A stretch of DNA of 64,000 nt from Beroe forskalii (taxonomy: Eukaryota; Ctenophora; Nuda; Beroida; Beroidae): NCBI GenBank assembly GCA_011033025.1, contig WFMF01000115.1:62001-126000 (forward strand). The letters are read 5' to 3'. Position 1 is the first letter of the stretch. Every line of letters starts with the position of its first letter. The notes beneath the pieces were generated by a model. It was not told the origin of the DNA. It ran no database searches and saw only the letters and a list, made by a program, of their open reading frames with translations. Positions 55,053 through 64,000 of the stretch are shown here, one piece after another. Both the position numbers and the translations under genes were made by a program.

Positions 55053-55132
55053 GCACTTGTCCAATCCTGTATCGATCGGGTTTATCTATACTGCACTTGT
55101 CCAATCCTGTATCGATCGGGTTTATCTATACT
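55053..55132 (+). repeat. Perfect 40-bp tandem duplication in the LINE 5' region
   Basis: GCACTTGTCCAATCCTGTAT and the next 20 bases occur twice head to tail (55053-55092, 55093-55132), about 230 bp before ORF1. Tandem monomers are common in LINE promoter regions. Confidence 0.9.
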
Positions 55133-55361
55133 AAGCTTCTTTGTCTCAAACCCCAAATTATCCCCTCTTGCCTCATTTTTCCTCTCAGGTGCCGTGATTT
55201 GCCTCTCAACTGGTGTGCTCGTGGCTGCTGGTCCCGCTCGCTCCCCTGCATTACCCTGCTCGCATCATGTCATGCTTTTGCGCATACTCCAGTACAGCTA
55301 TCTGCCTGGCTGATCGAGGCGATGCTGTCTTGAACCCCCGACACTCACCCCACTCAACATA

Positions 55362-57341
55362 ATGGAAAGTGAAAACGAAATCTCAACCGACTTAACACCT
55401 GAAGAGAAGACAGAGTTAATTGAAGGTTTTAAGTCCCTTGTCCAAGATAGGACAGTGAAGCTATCCACTTTAGGGAAACTGGAAAACTTCATCAACCAGG
55501 CTGTGGAAAGGCATTCCACATCGAGCTACTCCACGGCTGAGTCAGATCCTGAACCAGATGATGTAGAGGATGACATCCTGGAGCTTGCTCCAATTACATC
55601 GCTGGCAAATGTCTCCACATCTGATGCCATAGAAGAAACTTCGGAAATCTCCCCCATCATGTCAACATGGAGTTTAGCCAAACTAGCTGACCTCATACAC
55701 CATCAAAATAATTACTTCAGTATGAGCGATGTTAAACCCATTAAAGAAGAGCTGAATAGACTTTTCTCCATTGATGTCAGTAAGTATGTCTGGCTAGCTA
55801 CCAACCATAGCACATACAACTTTACTGGGTGGTCACTTGATTCTCGAACTATTGGTGTTTGCCTCAACATCTCAAGTGTCATGGAACACCTAAACCAAGA
55901 CCTGGGACTCCAGCTGGACTCATGCCTCATAACTCGGTATCTCAAGGCTGCCGACCATATACCACTGCACCAGGATAACGAGCCCCTGATAGACCAAGAG
56001 CACCCTATCTGCAACATCTCCATTGGCTCTCCACGTGGTATTGAATTTTGGTCAACCCGCAGTGAGGCAACTGGCGAGTTAGTTAAGAGCATCTTCATGC
56101 AAGAAGGCTCAATTACCCTCATGAAGCCCGGCTGTCAGCATAGACTATGGCACAAGGTCCTACAGGGGCCTGAAGGAACACGTTACTGTCTTTCCTTCCG
56201 TAAAACAACGCCAAGAGACAAGCCACTAACACCAGAATTAGCTGAGCTCAACGTTAGTGCCAGACATAGCGCCAGGAGAAACCTTCCTCTAACATCAACC
56301 CCTGCACGTCCTAGCAGGCCACCTCATCCTAGGACATTGTCACCTTCCTTCGCTCCACCAACCCTTACAGTGGCCCCATCAGCCCCGCCACTATCTCCTC
56401 CAACTCCAACCTCTCCGAAGGTACCATCTGCTCCTCCTGCTCCTGCCTCACCTGCCACTCCTCCACCACTACCTCCACCAGCTCCCTCGGCTCCCCCTGA
56501 GTCCTCACCTCCAGCTACTCCTTCTGCTACTGCTGCACCCTTACCTCCACCTGCAACGGGGGCAGCACCTCCTCCAGCTGTTGAACTGACCCCATTGGCA
56601 AACGGTTTTCTAGTACACCCTGACCGTGCTGCAAGATGCAGTATCCAGCAGCAGTCCCAATCATCATCTCCTCGGACTAACGGCTCGCGTCCCATTCCCC
56701 TCCCAAAGCCCCAACCTCTGAAGAATGGGTTCCCTATCCACCCAGGGTATGACGATACCTTCGTTGCCTCAGCTGCCAGAACCCCGGCCCCAAAACATGT
56801 GATCATCGGTGATTCTATGGTCAAGGGGCTGATGATGCCCGACTCCACTTTGATATGCAAGGGGGGGATTCATCCTGACCAGGTGTTACCTCTCCTCAGG
56901 GCATCATCAAGACTACTCCATCCTGACTCGTATGCTGAGGTAAACACTGTAACAATCATTGTGGGAACCAACGCCCTAAATGTTACTCCCCACCAGAAGC
57001 CGAAGCCCCTCCTAGATGTTATTTCGAACTACAAAGCCTTAGTCCTCGAAATTCGAAGGCTTTTTAAAAATGCAAGACTATGTCTCGTAAATGTAATCCC
57101 TAGGTCGTACCAGTGTAGAGAGACTGTTCATAGGATTGAGCATTTTAATAGTCTTTTTTCCATGCACATTAATGAACTTGTCCCAGGAGTGACATGGTTG
57201 AGGCTCTACTGGGAATTTGTCACATGGAATGGTTTTCTAAGAGAGGATCTTTATGGTAGGGATGGCTTACATTTAAATCTAAAAGGAAAAAAACTCATGT
57301 CTCAAGCCATTTCTAGTTTTCAGAATTCATTTTACCATTGA
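55362..57341 (+). CDS. LINE ORF1 protein: AlkB-like dioxygenase plus SGNH esterase
   Basis: This is an intact 659-residue frame. Residues 1-100 are acidic and unassigned. Residues about 105-282 resemble AlkB 2-oxoglutarate/Fe(II) dioxygenases: TRYLKAADHIPLHQDNEP carries the iron HxD (H203, D205), WHKV gives the second His (H264), and RYCLSFR gives the RxxxxxR 2-oxoglutarate/substrate arginines (R274, R280). Residues about 310-410 are Pro/Ala/Ser-rich. Residues about 478-659 are a SGNH/GDSL hydrolase: IIGDSMVKG (S485), VGTNAL (N537), GRDGLHLN (D634, H637). Esterase domains are known in CR1-like ORF1 proteins; an AlkB domain beside it is unusual. AlkB enzymes oxidatively remove methyl groups from nucleic acids, so a role on the element's RNA or cDNA is an inference. 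All catalytic residues are present. Confidence 0.85.
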   Translation: MESENEISTDLTPEEKTELIEGFKSLVQDRTVKLSTLGKLENFINQAVERHSTSSYSTAESDPEPDDVEDDILELAPITSLANVSTSDAIEETSEISPIMSTWSLAKLADLIHHQNNYFSMSDVKPIKEELNRLFSIDVSKYVWLATNHSTYNFTGWSLDSRTIGVCLNISSVMEHLNQDLGLQLDSCLITRYLKAADHIPLHQDNEPLIDQEHPICNISIGSPRGIEFWSTRSEATGELVKSIFMQEGSITLMKPGCQHRLWHKVLQGPEGTRYCLSFRKTTPRDKPLTPELAELNVSARHSARRNLPLTSTPARPSRPPHPRTLSPSFAPPTLTVAPSAPPLSPPTPTSPKVPSAPPAPASPATPPPLPPPAPSAPPESSPPATPSATAAPLPPPATGAAPPPAVELTPLANGFLVHPDRAARCSIQQQSQSSSPRTNGSRPIPLPKPQPLKNGFPIHPGYDDTFVASAARTPAPKHVIIGDSMVKGLMMPDSTLICKGGIHPDQVLPLLRASSRLLHPDSYAEVNTVTIIVGTNALNVTPHQKPKPLLDVISNYKALVLEIRRLFKNARLCLVNVIPRSYQCRETVHRIEHFNSLFSMHINELVPGVTWLRLYWEFVTWNGFLREDLYGRDGLHLNLKGKKLMSQAISSFQNSFYH

Positions 57342-57481: not shown

Positions 57482-58501
57482 ATGGGAATCAGTGCTACCG
57501 AACACAGAGTGAGGATTGGGTGTTTTCATTCAACAAGGGGCGTAAGTATGAGTTTGGCTTCCAATGTAAGCATCAGGTCAGGTTCCAAATTTAGGTCGGT
57601 GAATTTTAATTATTTTGATAGTTGGTCAAGCTCATATGAGGCTTACCAACCATTGCTGTTATTCCTGGCCTATGGTTATCTGCTTATGATAAGTTTGACT
57701 CTTTCTATGTGTGTACAAGTACCTGGCTATGGCCAATTCATCCATAATATAAACTATCTATCTAATTCAAATTTTCTGACTGTTGAATGTAGGCATCTCA
57801 TTAATTTTGCCCTCATAATTTTGTTATTTTTTAATAAAACCCTTTCAAACCAAAATATTTCAATTTTCAAATCAATGCAAAATAAATCGAATATCAAGCG
57901 GATCAATTTTATAAATTTCTGGTATTTAATGTTTTTGCGCGACAGTAAAACTAGTATGTTTTACCTCATGTCTATCAACCTTTTGTTAATTGTAATAACC
58001 ACACCCAGTATAGTCAACCCAGGCCCAATTAGTGCAACGTTCAGACCACTTAAAGTTTTCTACAATAATGTCCAAGGCTTTGTAAACCCAAATCACCTTA
58101 AGTCTGACTCCCCTCCATTGAATATGAAAAAAGTCCACGAACTTCATGGCTTTATTTTCACTGAAAAACCTGATATTATCATTCTAAATGAAACCTGGCT
58201 AAAGAAATCTATTCTAGACAACGAAATTTTTCCTCCTGATTCTTATAAAATTTATAGAGCCGACAGGTCCGGTGAAACACATCCCTGGGATCCAAGCAAC
58301 CCTAAAAAATACCGTAGGTTTGGTGGTGGTGTTTTAATAGCGCATCGACTTGACATAGCCTTAGAAAGTACCAGAGTTAGTTCGGTGAAAGCATTAGCTG
58401 AAATTTTAACATTGAATTTCAAACTGCCAACAGGTAAAAGGTTAAATCTCTCAACATTCTATCGTGTTGGTAACCTTGGGCTTGAAAATTTTGAATCTGT
58501 A
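57482..58501 (+). pseudogene. LINE ORF2, 5' part: leader with NPGP and first half of AP endonuclease
   Basis: The ORF starts at ATG 57482. Residues 57-80, 105-118 and 158-172 are hydrophobic. Residues 179-182 are NPGP (PSIVNPGP), resembling the end of 2A ribosome-skipping peptides, though the usual DxE before it is absent. From residue 188 the endonuclease begins: VFYNNVQGF (metal-binding Asn), IILNETWL (catalytic Glu), RFGGGVLIAHR, and LSTFYRVGNLGLENFES. The original frame stops being LINE sequence at about 58501, where foreign DNA begins; the frame runs on only to 58519. Confidence 0.85.
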
Positions 58502-58922
58502 AGTTTCATATTTCAATAATACCATACAGCACTACAATAACAATGAGTACATTACACTTCCACCAGTTTTGTTATCATTTTGTGTCGATGTTTCTTGTTT
58601 TCCAGTCGTACAGTTGTCAGTGTTCAATACAATAGTCTAATCGGTCTAATCAAAATTCAAATTACTTATTTATCTGGCATCCTACTAAGAGCCTTGGAGA
58701 GGAGATCATCTTTAGAGGGCTTTTCAGTCATGTGAAAAGTTTTGGGAACTGCTTTCCTAATGTAACGAGACAGATCAAAAGTACAACATCTGTTCTCTCC
58801 AATACAAGTAACAACCTCAGACAAAATGTTCTTCTTCAGTAGCATAGTATCTCTCTGGTTGCTGTTCTTCAGGACGTATATTTTCTGTGCTCGAGAGTAG
58901 GCTGCAACTTTATGAGACGTAG

Positions 58923-60964
58923 CTAGACAGTAAGACCATGATTATGTTCTAGGGCTGTTAGCATTGTCATAAGGATGTGAGTGTCCATTTTATAGGCATT
59001 ACATTTAGGTAGATACTTGAGTTTTGAACTATGAAACGATTCAAGTGGTCCAGTGTGGAGGAACTTCTCACACTTGCGCATATCGTTGCACAGCCTTGTA
59101 TCGGTGAGAATTTTAAAGAGGACAATGAAATCAGCATCTCCGACAGAAAACCACTTCCCTTTACGGTGAACACGCTTAGTGAGAGGCAGATGTAAACATT
59201 TTTGGTTTTTACTGGCTAATGTGGGGGCTTTTGGGTAGGGTTTCTTTCCACGAAGTTCCGCAAAAGTAGTTTTGAGTTTTTTACTTCTCGGCCAAGAATG
59301 AACATTGAGAACGTGAAACAAGCTGAATGGAACAGCTCCAGTAGTAGGTCTGGATTTTCATTACAAGATTGTGCACTCCACCAAAAGTGATTGACGAGAT
59401 CGTTAGTCCAGGCTAAGATTTTGGGTACTTCTTTCCAGCCTTATCTAGTTTTTTCCGAAGTCTCTTAGCAGTGTGCCAGATATCATATCCGTGGTACACA
59501 CTTGGGAACTGCTCTCGTATCATTTTGGCAATTGGGCCATGACAGTCAGAGACAAACGAATTCACAGCCAGACCATCTTCATTGATCAATACATTCAGGA
59601 GTTCCTCACAAGCTTGTTTCTCCAGTTCTCCTTCATACTGGCCTTTCTGGACCACAAAAAAGTCTACAACCTTGTTTGTTACTGATTGCATCATAGTATA
59701 GGTACAAAATTTTGCACTGTACCCTGGACTATCAAATTGTCCATCGCCACTCAATACGATTTCATCTGCAGCTTTCAAGTCAGCGATGGTACCCTCCTTC
59801 ATTGATCGGTATTTCGTGTAAATAACAGGGAAAAGCCATTTCGACCAAGCTGGTAAAAGCTCTTCTTCGTCACTAGTGGTATTTCTAGTAGAGAAAAATG
59901 ATTTCAACTTAAAACCAACACCACTCATCATTGCAGAAGCAGCAAATTTGACATTGACGTGATATTTCTTGTGAAGTAATTCTCCCGAACGCCAGGTATG
60001 GGTATGCCCCATGGCACATACATACTCAACTGCGACAGCAACTCCAGAGTACCGTACAACAGTTGATAGTATTCTACTGCCACACAGGAAACAGTAAATG
60101 AAGAGTAGTTTCAGCTGCTCCATGCCAACAATTACTGCAGAAACTGGTGTCTCCACTACTCGTTTCTTCTTTTTTGAGTAGTACTGCCTTCTATTCCAGG
60201 TATTTTGCGAAGAGGCACTCTCAGCATTCGGCTGTAAATCAAATGAAGGGTCAGTTTCTTCTGAGTCACTAATTCTGAGACACTTACTTCGTCCTCGCCC
60301 ATGAAATTATGTTGATTAACTTCATTCAACGATGGAAAGCATTTGCAATTGAAATCAGTCTGGGTAGTCATTGATTTTGTCCTGTTCACTGAAACTGCTG
60401 GCTCTGGAACATTTAGAAATGATGCTGATTGTGTGTCTTGATCAACACTTATCAAACTTGATTCCATGAACTCTTCGGCTGCAGTCGTTCCAGGGTCGTT
60501 GATACTCTGCTCACCATCACTGTGTTGACCTACTATTGCCTCATTCTCTTCAATTATATCATCAATCCTGCTCAATGCAATGTTTCTTTTCTTCCTTTGT
60601 CTTGAAGGTTGTGTGGCATCCTCTGAGCAAGATGTATGTATCCTCTTTAGTCCTGACGATCTATCAGTGTTAGAATTGCATCATCTTTCAGGGTTATCTT
60701 CAACCCCCTTAGTGCTTTCATTTCTATTGTGCAACTGAAGAGATTGTTGGTACTGTCTGTAATTAAAATCATTTTCCTCAAAGTGGTCAGAACAAACAAC
60801 CATTTTCTTTGCATTGATATCACATGGCCGTCGATCGATTCTTTCCATCCACATCTTTGCCCTTGTTGAGTCTTTGAGGAATGGATAAAATCGCATGAAA
60901 TGACGTAGTGCACTGGTACTTTTCCATGCCTATTTGAGCAGTTACCAGCACAGCAATAGCTCAT
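58923..60964 (-). pseudogene. THAP-domain DDE transposase (Kolobok-like), frameshifted
   Basis: The ATG at 60964 opens a THAP zinc finger, MSYCCAGNCSNRHGK. It continues in a second frame (FMRFYPFLKDSTRAKMWMER, then CSDHFEENDFN) and returns to the first (LKDDAILTLI), giving the C2CH pattern. A Ser/Glu-rich linker (about 60640-60170) follows. The catalytic region (60156-59413, then 59321-58923) has the first Asp in SGDGQFDSPGYSAKFCTYTM, the second in VSDCHGPI, YDIWHTAKRLRKKLDK, and the Glu in TGPLESFHS. These match the Kolobok-type nuclease as I know it. At least four frameshifts occur, one within an A-run near 60170, so no intact product is encoded as read. Confidence 0.82.
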
Positions 60965-61100
60965 GAATATCACCTACTGAAAAATAATAAGATGAATTTG
61001 TTGATTTTGCAATTTGAACCATATACCTATAACCTATTGCTCATACTGAATTGTGTACTAAATCACATTTTTTGTTTCAAGGCTCATCTGTTAACCAAAT
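60965..61100. promoter_or_regulatory. Shared divergent promoter region inside the transposon
   Basis: Only 136 bp separate the start codons of the minus-strand transposase and the plus-strand P2X7-like gene. The interval is AT-rich with no clear TATA box. A bidirectional promoter is inferred from layout only. Confidence 0.45.
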
Positions 61101-61749
61101 ATGGCCGAAAAAGCAGATTCAGATGGCAGCAACGACGGCTTTGAAACAGATTCAAGTTTAGGATCATCCTATGAAAGTCAAGATGAATATGAAAGCGATA
61201 ATGACACTGAAAATACGACCACTCTCATGTTTACTATGGCACTGGTGCCTACCCGAGATGATCTAAGTGATCACAGTAGTGACGATGAAGTGTACGAATG
61301 CGATTCCTCCAGTGACACTGATTCGGATTCTGAGGTAGTAACACAGTGCAAGTGTGATAAGTGCCCACAAGCAGCTGATGATGGATGCTACTGTTGTACC
61401 GGAAATCTCTGTGGCAGAGGATATCAAAGGCCATCGGTGTATTACAGAGGTGGAGCAGTTCGTGGAATGCATTGGTAATGTGACTGTACTAGAAATGGCT
61501 GCATTTTCCGTAAACAAAGGGAGAGTGTTTCCAACAAGAGATGAAGTGGAAAAGTTTAATAGACTGATGCGACACACAGCATACAGGACATTCCTGCATA
61601 TTCTTAATTTTAGAGGTTTGGGCATAGGTAAAAGGTACAGGCTTCCATCCTGCGTTGAGCACGTAATCAGAGGATTATACCCTAGCCCTAGTGGACAATA
61701 CACAGGTTTTCATGGATTAGACCAATTAAATTCACTAAAAGAATTCTAA
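61101..61749 (+). pseudogene. P2X7 C-terminal (ballast)-like zinc-domain protein, one frameshift
   Basis: The ATG at 61101 starts an acidic Ser/Asp/Glu-rich region of about 85 residues, then CKCDKCPQ and CYCCTGN, the Cys pattern of the P2X7 receptor cytoplasmic domain. A shift of frame near 61430 leads to CITEVEQFVECIGN, RLMRHTAYRTFLHILNFRG and RYRLPSCVEHVIRGLYPSP followed by GQYTGF, all typical of that domain's C-terminal half. No receptor transmembrane segments are present. Such stand-alone domains occur in invertebrates. Position inside the transposon suggests it travels with the transposase; its function is unknown. Confidence 0.8.
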
Positions 61750-62280
61750 TTATCACGAAGAACTTGTGGCAATTACAACATTGCCACAACGAGTTAACGA
61801 GTTAGTTGAAAACTATACACTGTTGCCTAACGCATATCAGGGATATCATACATAGATACGTCTTGTTCTTGTTGTACTATGTCTTAAGGAAAATATGTTC
61901 ACATAATATCTAGATTTTGTCATTATTGATTAAAATATTTAATATATAGTGCGTTATTAAACAACAGAAGATTTATTGTTATCAACCAGATTAATGAACA
62001 ACAGAAGTTTTGTGATCTGCATCGAAACAAAACAATAATAGATCAATCAGGTATAGCAACAGAATTAGTGTTTACATAGCGATTTTACATACATGGCGGC
62101 TGTGGGCAGTGATTACAAGGAAGAACTGACGTCACACGATAAGGTATCATGTTTCTAATTTACGCCCATATCTTGCGTTACACACGGAGTAGAGAGGTGG
62201 GACTTTCGTTATTCGATTACTATAATAGTAACTATGATATACTGAATTTTTTGTTATATTTAGAAGAAGTCAATTTTTAA
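61750..62280. other. 3' flank of the transposon, non-coding
   Basis: AT-rich, with two AACAACAGAAG motifs (about 61960 and 61998) and a CTGACGTCACAC CRE-like site near 62127. Near the junction, TTTTTTGTTATATTTAG resembles a splice acceptor and GTAAGT at the left junction resembles a donor. Splicing them would not restore the LINE frame. Confidence 0.5.
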
Positions 62281-64000
62281 GTACACCCGTCCTTTAAAAC
62301 ATATCTCACCACTCTGGCTGCTAAGAAAAAATTAGACAAACATATCCTCATCGGGGACCTAAGTTTCCCTGAAATTTCGTGGCCTGACGAAAGCACCTCC
62401 GTTGAGCTGCATAAAAAGTTTGTTAATTTATTTATGCTTGATCTCAACCACTCTCAACTGATAACTAAACCGACTCATAAAAACGGGAATATGCTTGATT
62501 TACTATTCACCAATGTTCCAGAGTTGATTGAGGATGTTAGTGTAATGGGTTATAAAGAGGCCTGCTCATCAGATCATTTTGGAATTAAATTCTCGCTAAA
62601 AGTTAATATAGCACATAAAAATTTCCAAAGAGATCAATGTATAATTATCATAAAGCTGACTGGAAAAATCTAAATTATGATATGAAGAAATTAGACTGGG
62701 ATAGAATTATTGGCAGTCGACCCATGCGAATCCTGGGGAAATTTTTCAAAACTGTCCTGAGTAAGCTATGTGACAAATATATTCCTAAAAGTCTATCAAA
62801 TATCAATTTCAACCACCATGGTTTGACTCGGACTGTGCAAAGGTACTTCGAGAAAAGGAAAAGTGGAGGGCCAAAGCAAATTCCTCAGAGCTGGTACAGA
62901 GGAGGATCACAAGAAATTTCGACAACTAAGAAGTGATTTTAAGAAAGTTATGGACGAGAAAATGAGATTAAGTGTAGAAGATGATACCGACCCAGCCCTC
63001 GTCTCGAAGAAATTTTGGAGGCATGTCAAATTCAAAACTAAGTCAACAAGAATACCTGAAACTGTACACTACAAAGGTAAGTATCGCACGAAACCTTCTG
63101 ATCAAGCCGACTTATTTAATGCCTTCTTCTGTGACCAGTTCTCTGATAAAAGCAAATACGATATTGACATTGATATGAGTGCCAATAAGTTTTCTAGACC
63201 TAGAATTCCATGTGTTGGATGTCATGTTACTATTGAAAATGTCAACCCGAATAAAGCCGCCGGCCCTGATGGTATCCATGGTATGGTTCTTAAAAACTGT
63301 GCTTCTAGTATAGCCAAACCACTTACGCTGCTTTTTTAATATATCCTTCGTCTCAGAATTATTCCAAACGACTGGAAACTTGCTTCCGTTGTGCCAGTGC
63401 ATAAAAAAGAAGATAAGGGCTGTGTCGGTAATTATAGACCAATTTCTTTAACTTCACTTGTCATGAAAGTTTTTGAGAGGTGCATACACAAGGAACTTTT
63501 ATTGCCTGCGAAAATTCTCTAGATTCTCGACAACATGGTTTTGTCAATTCTAAGTCATGTACAACACACAGATGGTCCCTTTATACATGACCTTAGTCTT
63601 AATATCAATAAAGGGACTACTGCTAATATAATTTACTTCGACTTTGCGAAAGCCTTTGACAGTGTGTCTCATGACATCATCCTACATAAACTGAAGTATG
63701 AATTTAATATCGATGGGCTTATGCTTAGGTTCATCAAAGTCTTATCTGGAAGGTCGACTTCGGCAAAGTGGTCATAGGAGGAGCCCACATCCGACCCCCC
63801 TCCAGTGTAGATTCAGGGTGTGCCGCAGGGTTCCATCCTCGGCCCGCTCCTATTTTGTATTATTTATTAACGACATGTTTTCCTGTATCTCTGAGGGAAC
63901 CCAAATTGTTTTTGTACGCTGACGACACCTAAAATATGGAGGGAAATCATCACATCGGATGATCATTTGCTCTCCAGACTGATATAGATAACCTCCAGGC
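62281..64000 (+). pseudogene. LINE ORF2, 3' part: end of endonuclease and reverse transcriptase, truncated by window
   Basis: The endonuclease resumes with FKTYLTTLAAKKKLDKHIL, GDLSFPEISW (normally GDFN) and SSDHFGI. After frameshifts near 62640 and 62860 come the linker (KKFRQLRSDFKK, KKFWRHVKFK) and RT blocks: NKAAGPDGIHGMVLK at about 63250, WKLASVVPVHKK and NYRPISLTS at about 63380-63450, YFDFAKAFDSVSHDI at about 63632, GVPQGSILGPLLF at about 63815, and the catalytic YADD at 63915-63926. Stops and frameshifts near 63340 and 63520 mean this copy cannot make a full ORF2. The sequence runs off the window. Confidence 0.87.

Follow-up and report, generated by a model that had tools for sequence, protein, structure and literature searches.

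Predicted fusion of an ALKBH2/3-type dioxygenase domain and an SGNH esterase in the ORF1 protein of LINE retrotransposons from the ctenophore Beroe forskalii

In a 64,000-nucleotide stretch of the Beroe forskalii genome (hereafter the window; positions 62001-126000 of contig C154 in our numbering, WFMF01000115.1), the first open reading frame (ORF1) of a long interspersed nuclear element (LINE) encodes a protein that, as judged from its residues, carries the catalytically complete ligand set of an ALKBH2/3-type Fe(II)/2-oxoglutarate (2OG) dioxygenase, followed by an SGNH esterase. The occurrence of this AlkB and esterase pair across related LINE families suggests that these elements clean the RNA or DNA copies of themselves ahead of insertion. 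ORF1 lies at 55362..57341 on the plus strand and is intact, with an ATG at 55362, a stop codon at 57339-57341 and 659 amino acids free of internal stops, as an earlier note on this DNA had stated. The residues named in that note (H203, D205, H264, R274 and R280; S485, N537, D634 and H637) are likewise all in place. The layout of ORF1 is as follows.

55362..55661, plus strand: residues 1-100, acidic N-terminus (24 Asp and Glu against 6 Lys and Arg), helices at 13-29 and 34-53 predicted by the structure model
55668..56216, plus strand: residues 103-285, AlkB-type 2OG-Fe(II) dioxygenase domain
55968..55982, plus strand: HQDNE motif, with iron ligands H203 and D205, and E207 at the position of ALKBH2 E175
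56151..56153, plus strand: H264, the third iron ligand (alignment A1)
56181..56201, plus strand: R274-x5-R280, the 2OG-binding and AlkB-specific arginines
56217..56795, plus strand: residues 286-478, Pro-rich linker (28% Pro), mostly of low confidence in the structure model
56796..57338, plus strand: residues 479-659, SGNH/GDSL esterase domain with S485, N537, D634 and H637

Structure prediction modelled residues 101-280 confidently, with a mean predicted local distance difference test (pLDDT) score of 81-98 over 10-residue blocks, and the predicted fold is the AlkB double-stranded beta helix. In a structural comparison, the best matches of these residues were ALKBH2 and ALKBH3. Among relatives of known structure, these two enzymes, and not the demethylases of N6-methyladenosine (m6A), are the nearest; ALKBH2 ranks above ALKBH5 by both sequence and fold. 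The fold check proposed in the earlier note has thus been carried out, with an AlkB fold as its outcome. Conservation was assessed in alignment A1, which comprises 12 ORF1s of the B. forskalii genome and 12 database proteins. H203, D205, E207, H264, R274, R280, S485, G535 and N537 are invariant in all 24, and a profile match aligns E207 with E175 of ALKBH2. The Pfam AlkB model PF13532 scored above its cut-off in six of seven other ORF1s scanned from this genome, the miss being L009, a close relative of the window copy; it did so also in L032 and in P0002, the nearest database relative. Because fold, profile and conservation agree, a chance resemblance to AlkB was rejected.

The Ser and Asn of the esterase (S485, N537) are present in 24 of the 24 aligned proteins, H637 is conserved in at least 90%, and a profile match links the domain to the ORF1 esterase of the zebrafish LINE ZfL2-1 (chain 4c1b, E 1.1e-7). 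The window ORF1 thus has the SGNH domain with Ser, Asn and His that defines a type IV ORF1, and in the window as well as in the sister copies an ORF2 with endonuclease and reverse transcriptase (RT) follows on the same strand.

The pair is found far beyond the window. In the 216-Mb assembly (1134 contigs), the Pfam AlkB model, with LINE and other loci counted together, gave at least 150 scored matches among 189 candidates, all above cut-off, and 140 of the 150 lacked an internal stop. L030 and L031, which are among the best matches, look like ordinary cellular ALKBH2/3 genes, the comparison with PDB structures having covered L030. The LINE copies were sorted into five lineages, from the fetched part of the genomic AlkB loci.

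Lineage A: the window copy, L009 and L010, with L011 and L012 more distant
Lineage B: L013-L018 and L020
Lineage C: L021 and L022, with L028 more distant
Lineage D: L024
Lineage E: L023, L025-L027 and L032

Long open ORF1 and ORF2 frames occur together in L014, L016 and L024; both are also open in L022, in an ORF1 frame that lacks the N-terminal part present in L021. Of 20 loci, 16 have ORF2-type matches downstream on the same strand, in two of them as short remnants only, and the RVT_1 match in L014 ORF2 has an E of 2e-31. RT pieces are 56% identical between A and B, and 30-41% identical between the other lineage pairs. Starting from ORF2 instead, we took 44 of 45 places found with a C-type query and 33 of 51 found with a B-type query, the others being further pieces of the same copies. 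An AlkB match in the same orientation lies no more than 4.5 kb upstream of at least 19 of the 44 and at least 7 of the 33, and 18 of the 26 gaps between AlkB and ORF2 measure 785-945 bases, which leaves space for an esterase. Among the matches listed (the at least 150 above plus two extra places; one of these, C847, belongs to the 19), none lies downstream of these ORF2 places. ORF2 places with no AlkB match upstream say little either way, because the AlkB matches are a lower bound and many places may be 5'-truncated.

Database proteins extend this picture. A search with the more distant family-E ORF1 of L027 returned 104 proteins, of which 98 have a precomputed PF13532 match. The six AlkB columns are all covered by 98 proteins, and 96 of these have the full residue set; six of the 104 are gapped at the HxD columns. 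The esterase Ser and Asn are found in 104 of 104 and the His in 102. With a profile built from families B, C, D and E as the query, 19 proteins matched, 18 of them with PF13532, and one of the 19 carries a Joint Genome Institute (JGI) name that combines "alkylated DNA repair dioxygenase AlkB" with "lysophospholipase L1-like esterase". P0023 is an exception, with Gln in place of the last Arg. The claim that a LINE ORF1 unites an AlkB-type domain and an SGNH esterase, both with complete ligand sets, therefore holds, as does the expectation that other copies keep the HxD, His and Arg residues, and the fusion is common to several LINE lineages. A fusion confined to one copy, or an assembly artefact, was rejected, since the pair occurs on many contigs and in database proteins of other sources.

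A tree of 45 AlkB rows places A, B, C and E each on one side of a branch and joins A with B (99). It also separates the 41 LINE-type rows from four cellular ALKBH2/3 rows, with a Shimodaira-Hasegawa-like approximate likelihood ratio (SH-aLRT) support of 98. P0029 (two AlkB domains), P0023, the truncated P0031 and P0032, and the 104 proteins of the family-E query were left out. That LINEs captured AlkB a single time is a guess, because the tree was built quickly, raised long-branch warnings, and contains only a few cellular rows and none from viruses.

Ratios of nonsynonymous to synonymous substitution (dN/dS), obtained by Nei-Gojobori counts, show that the AlkB-esterase ORF1 family is under purifying selection. 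Across the 15 pairs of six B copies, dN/dS is 0.12-0.20 for ORF1 and 0.08-0.25 for its AlkB part. Between L009 and L010 it is 0.16 for AlkB, 0.12 for the esterase and 0.51 for the Pro-rich linker, the highest among the parts with a computable value; in family A, therefore, the AlkB part is conserved about as strongly as the esterase. When the AlkB part of the window is compared with L009 and L010, synonymous sites are saturated, with proportions of nonsynonymous and synonymous differences (pN/pS) of 0.138/0.793 and 0.117/0.787. The B copies differ from L016 by only 0.6-5.4% in ORF1 and ORF2, and thus family B moved recently. The earlier note had argued that an intact ORF1 beside a ruined ORF2 implies recent activity or selection. 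Selection is indeed visible family-wide, but the inference is weak for a single copy whose ORF1 protein is 68-70% identical to its nearest genomic copies. In L015, where ORF2 is poor as a protein match, selection on ORF1 alone was considered and rejected by DNA comparison: mismatches amount to 1.2%, and gap columns number 70 in ORF2 against 0 in ORF1, so that frame breaks explain the poor match. Some of these breaks could be sequence errors.

What might such a domain do? We consider it fairly probable that the AlkB domain of ORF1 is an active, built-in template-repair enzyme that acts on the element's own RNA or cDNA and raises the yield of full-length copies. Beyond the complete residue set in an AlkB fold, all steps of this mechanism are ones that we infer. 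The domain, presumably active, is joined by the flexible Pro-rich linker to the SGNH esterase. Its substrates, within the particle of the ORF1 protein (ORF1p), the place where element RNA is packaged, would be the RNA of the element itself and the first-strand cDNA, from which it would remove methyl groups that disturb reverse transcription, such as 1-methyladenosine (m1A) and 3-methylcytidine (m3C). The esterase may keep the particle at membranes, as proposed for ZfL2-1, whose esterase binds acidic phospholipids (PMC3905857). It is on record that ORF1p packages element RNA (PMC3905857), and that m1A disturbs reverse transcriptase, a problem relieved ahead of sequencing by AlkB treatment (PMC7968990). 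A wider and more tentative proposal, which is possible but which we would not favor outright, is that a whole radiation of LINEs carries an ALKBH2/3-type demethylase as a core module of ORF1, uses it while target-primed reverse transcription proceeds to clear RT-disturbing m1A and m3C from the element RNA or the single-stranded cDNA, and has retained this enzyme through the deep divergence of its ORF2 lineages.

Several observations weigh against template repair. The window protein does not itself reach the Pfam AlkB model, its sole Pfam family being GDSL lipase, below cut-off. The Asn of the ALKBH2 LINRY motif, which we take to be a 2OG contact, is kept in L021 and L022 but replaced by Thr or Ser (LITRY, LISRY) in many of the LINE proteins. 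Whole-ORF1 dN/dS is less low in L026/L027 (0.56) and L011/L012 (0.36), and the window copy is no working element. ORF1p has no known RNA-binding fold, and may not hold RNA tightly. Lastly, the fold alone fixes no substrate, since the relatives of AlkB include some whose substrates are proteins or unknown.

Such relatives leave room for a domain whose substrate is a protein of the host or of the element, with effects on host restriction or on the assembly of ORF1p; this is highly improbable in our view, as all 24 aligned ORF1s keep the ALKBH2-like Glu as well as the second Arg of RxxxxxR. The same Glu bears on an active enzyme that erases regulatory or silencing marks (m6A in RNA, adenine methylation in DNA), as proposed for the AlkB domain of orchid Ty3/Gypsy elements (PMC9289625). 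The E175A substitution in ALKBH2 abolishes m1A and m3C activity (PMC12295762). In E. coli AlkB the corresponding residue, D135, is close to N6 of m1A, and the D135I variant gains m6A activity (PMC7968990). The invariant Glu at 207 therefore speaks for substrates of the m1A/m3C type and against m6A. With sequence and fold also closest to ALKBH2/3, mark erasure appears unlikely. Finally, the domain could be a nucleic-acid binding module that gives ORF1p its RNA or single-stranded DNA binding, catalysis being secondary. Esterase ORF1ps in Repbase are described as devoid of RRM or other known RNA-binding domains (PMC3905857), and Pfam at the thresholds used returned no RRM or CCHC family in the window protein or the other own-genome ORF1s scanned. 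Pure binding, however, has no need of iron and 2OG ligands, and these are kept in all 24 diverged ORF1s and in 96 of the 98 covering E-type proteins, which makes this explanation quite unlikely.

Both halves of the arrangement have precedents. Literature searches aimed at the pairing, which covered published work other than Repbase and preprints, found no AlkB in a LINE ORF1 among the matches listed. Type IV ORF1s of CR1 and L2 LINEs, such as ZfL2-1, share the SGNH esterase and an ORF2 with endonuclease and RT. A survey of ORF1s in the Jockey superfamily reports type IV from two vertebrate groups only, sometimes with a zinc finger or leucine zipper; its main text uses neither "AlkB" nor "oxygenase" (PMC4120745). 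Type IV as described there is an esterase ORF1; the window ORF1 has an AlkB-type domain as well. Human ALKBH2 and ALKBH3, Fe(II)/2OG demethylases of m1A and m3C, are free cellular repair enzymes and not, as here, a domain inside an ORF1 with an esterase. The orchid Ty3/Gypsy elements are also retrotransposons with an AlkB-family demethylase (PMC9289625). Theirs, however, are plant elements with long terminal repeats (LTRs) and a recently captured ALKBH5-like domain, in contrast to an ALKBH2/3-type domain in several diverged LINE lineages whose ORF2 is a non-LTR endonuclease and RT. Plant RNA viruses likewise carry AlkB as a module of an RNA-based genome, with the same HxD, H and RxxxxxR set (PMC544882, PMC9289625), in a different replicon; the likeness drawn here is that of the residue set.

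If template repair is correct, a nucleic-acid repair or demethylation enzyme joins the toolkit of LINE ORF1s, of which the esterase type has so far lacked a clear nucleic-acid function. It would also raise the questions whether retrotransposition is limited by chemical methylation of the template RNA, and whether erasers of their own have evolved in transposons. The family is, besides, a natural source of diverged ALKBH2/3-type domains; these may be adapted to aid reverse transcription and could serve the sequencing of modified RNA.

Around ORF1, the window holds the following parts of the element.

55141..55361, plus strand: 5' leader; sister copies L009 and L010 are homologous at the DNA level from 55141 onward
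57482..58500, plus strand: start of ORF2, with a hydrophobic N-terminal extension ending in NPGP and then the endonuclease (Pfam below cut-off)
58501..62290, no strand assigned: insert of ~3.8 kb in ORF2, a gap in homology to L009, with a Mutator-like transposase ORF at 59413-60156 (minus strand)
62290..64000, plus strand: remainder of ORF2 (end of the endonuclease, and RT), in broken frames, extending past the window end

The window copy is homologous to L009 at the DNA level from 55141 to about 65512, the final part lying beyond the window in L029. This homology breaks off at 58500 and restarts at 62294, at the same L009 position. The transposase ORF of the insert matches PF20700 (33 bits, cut-off 26.5); terminal inverted repeats of the insert were sought at 58501-62290, and none was clear. 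Downstream of it, ORF2 matches are spread over several frames. ORF2, described as ruined in the earlier note, is present but interrupted by the insert. A domesticated host gene was rejected as the main account of the window copy, because ORF1 lies in an element whose 5' leader, ORF2 and 3' region match L009.

Among relatives, the sole named one found is P0090 from the ctenophore Mnemiopsis leidyi, which shares 38% identity with the family-E query. This 764-residue hypothetical protein is annotated as a gene but looks like an AlkB-esterase LINE ORF1. P0029, whose source name combines AlkB and esterase, has two tandem AlkB domains ahead of the esterase, the second with an incomplete residue set. 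Family C ORF1s (L021, L028, P0014, P0017, P0030) show, by eye, a Cys-rich PHD-like finger and a long stretch ahead of AlkB; PF00628 was scored for L021 alone, below cut-off. The plus-strand ORF2-type match beside the minus-strand family-A ORF1 of L011 is probably a second, separate copy.

The N-terminal ORF2 extension of families A and B (window 57482-58028, L009, L014) spans about 180-205 residues, has three strongly hydrophobic stretches and is closed by NPGP directly before the endonuclease; ORF2 of L022 (C) and L024 (D) has no such extension. NPGP resembles 2A-like peptides, which usually have D-V/I-E-x ahead of it, but that motif is absent here. Just upstream of the homologous 5' leader, at 55053-55132, a 40-base unit (GCACTTGTCCAATCCTGTATCGATCGGGTTTATCTATACT) occurs twice, head to tail.
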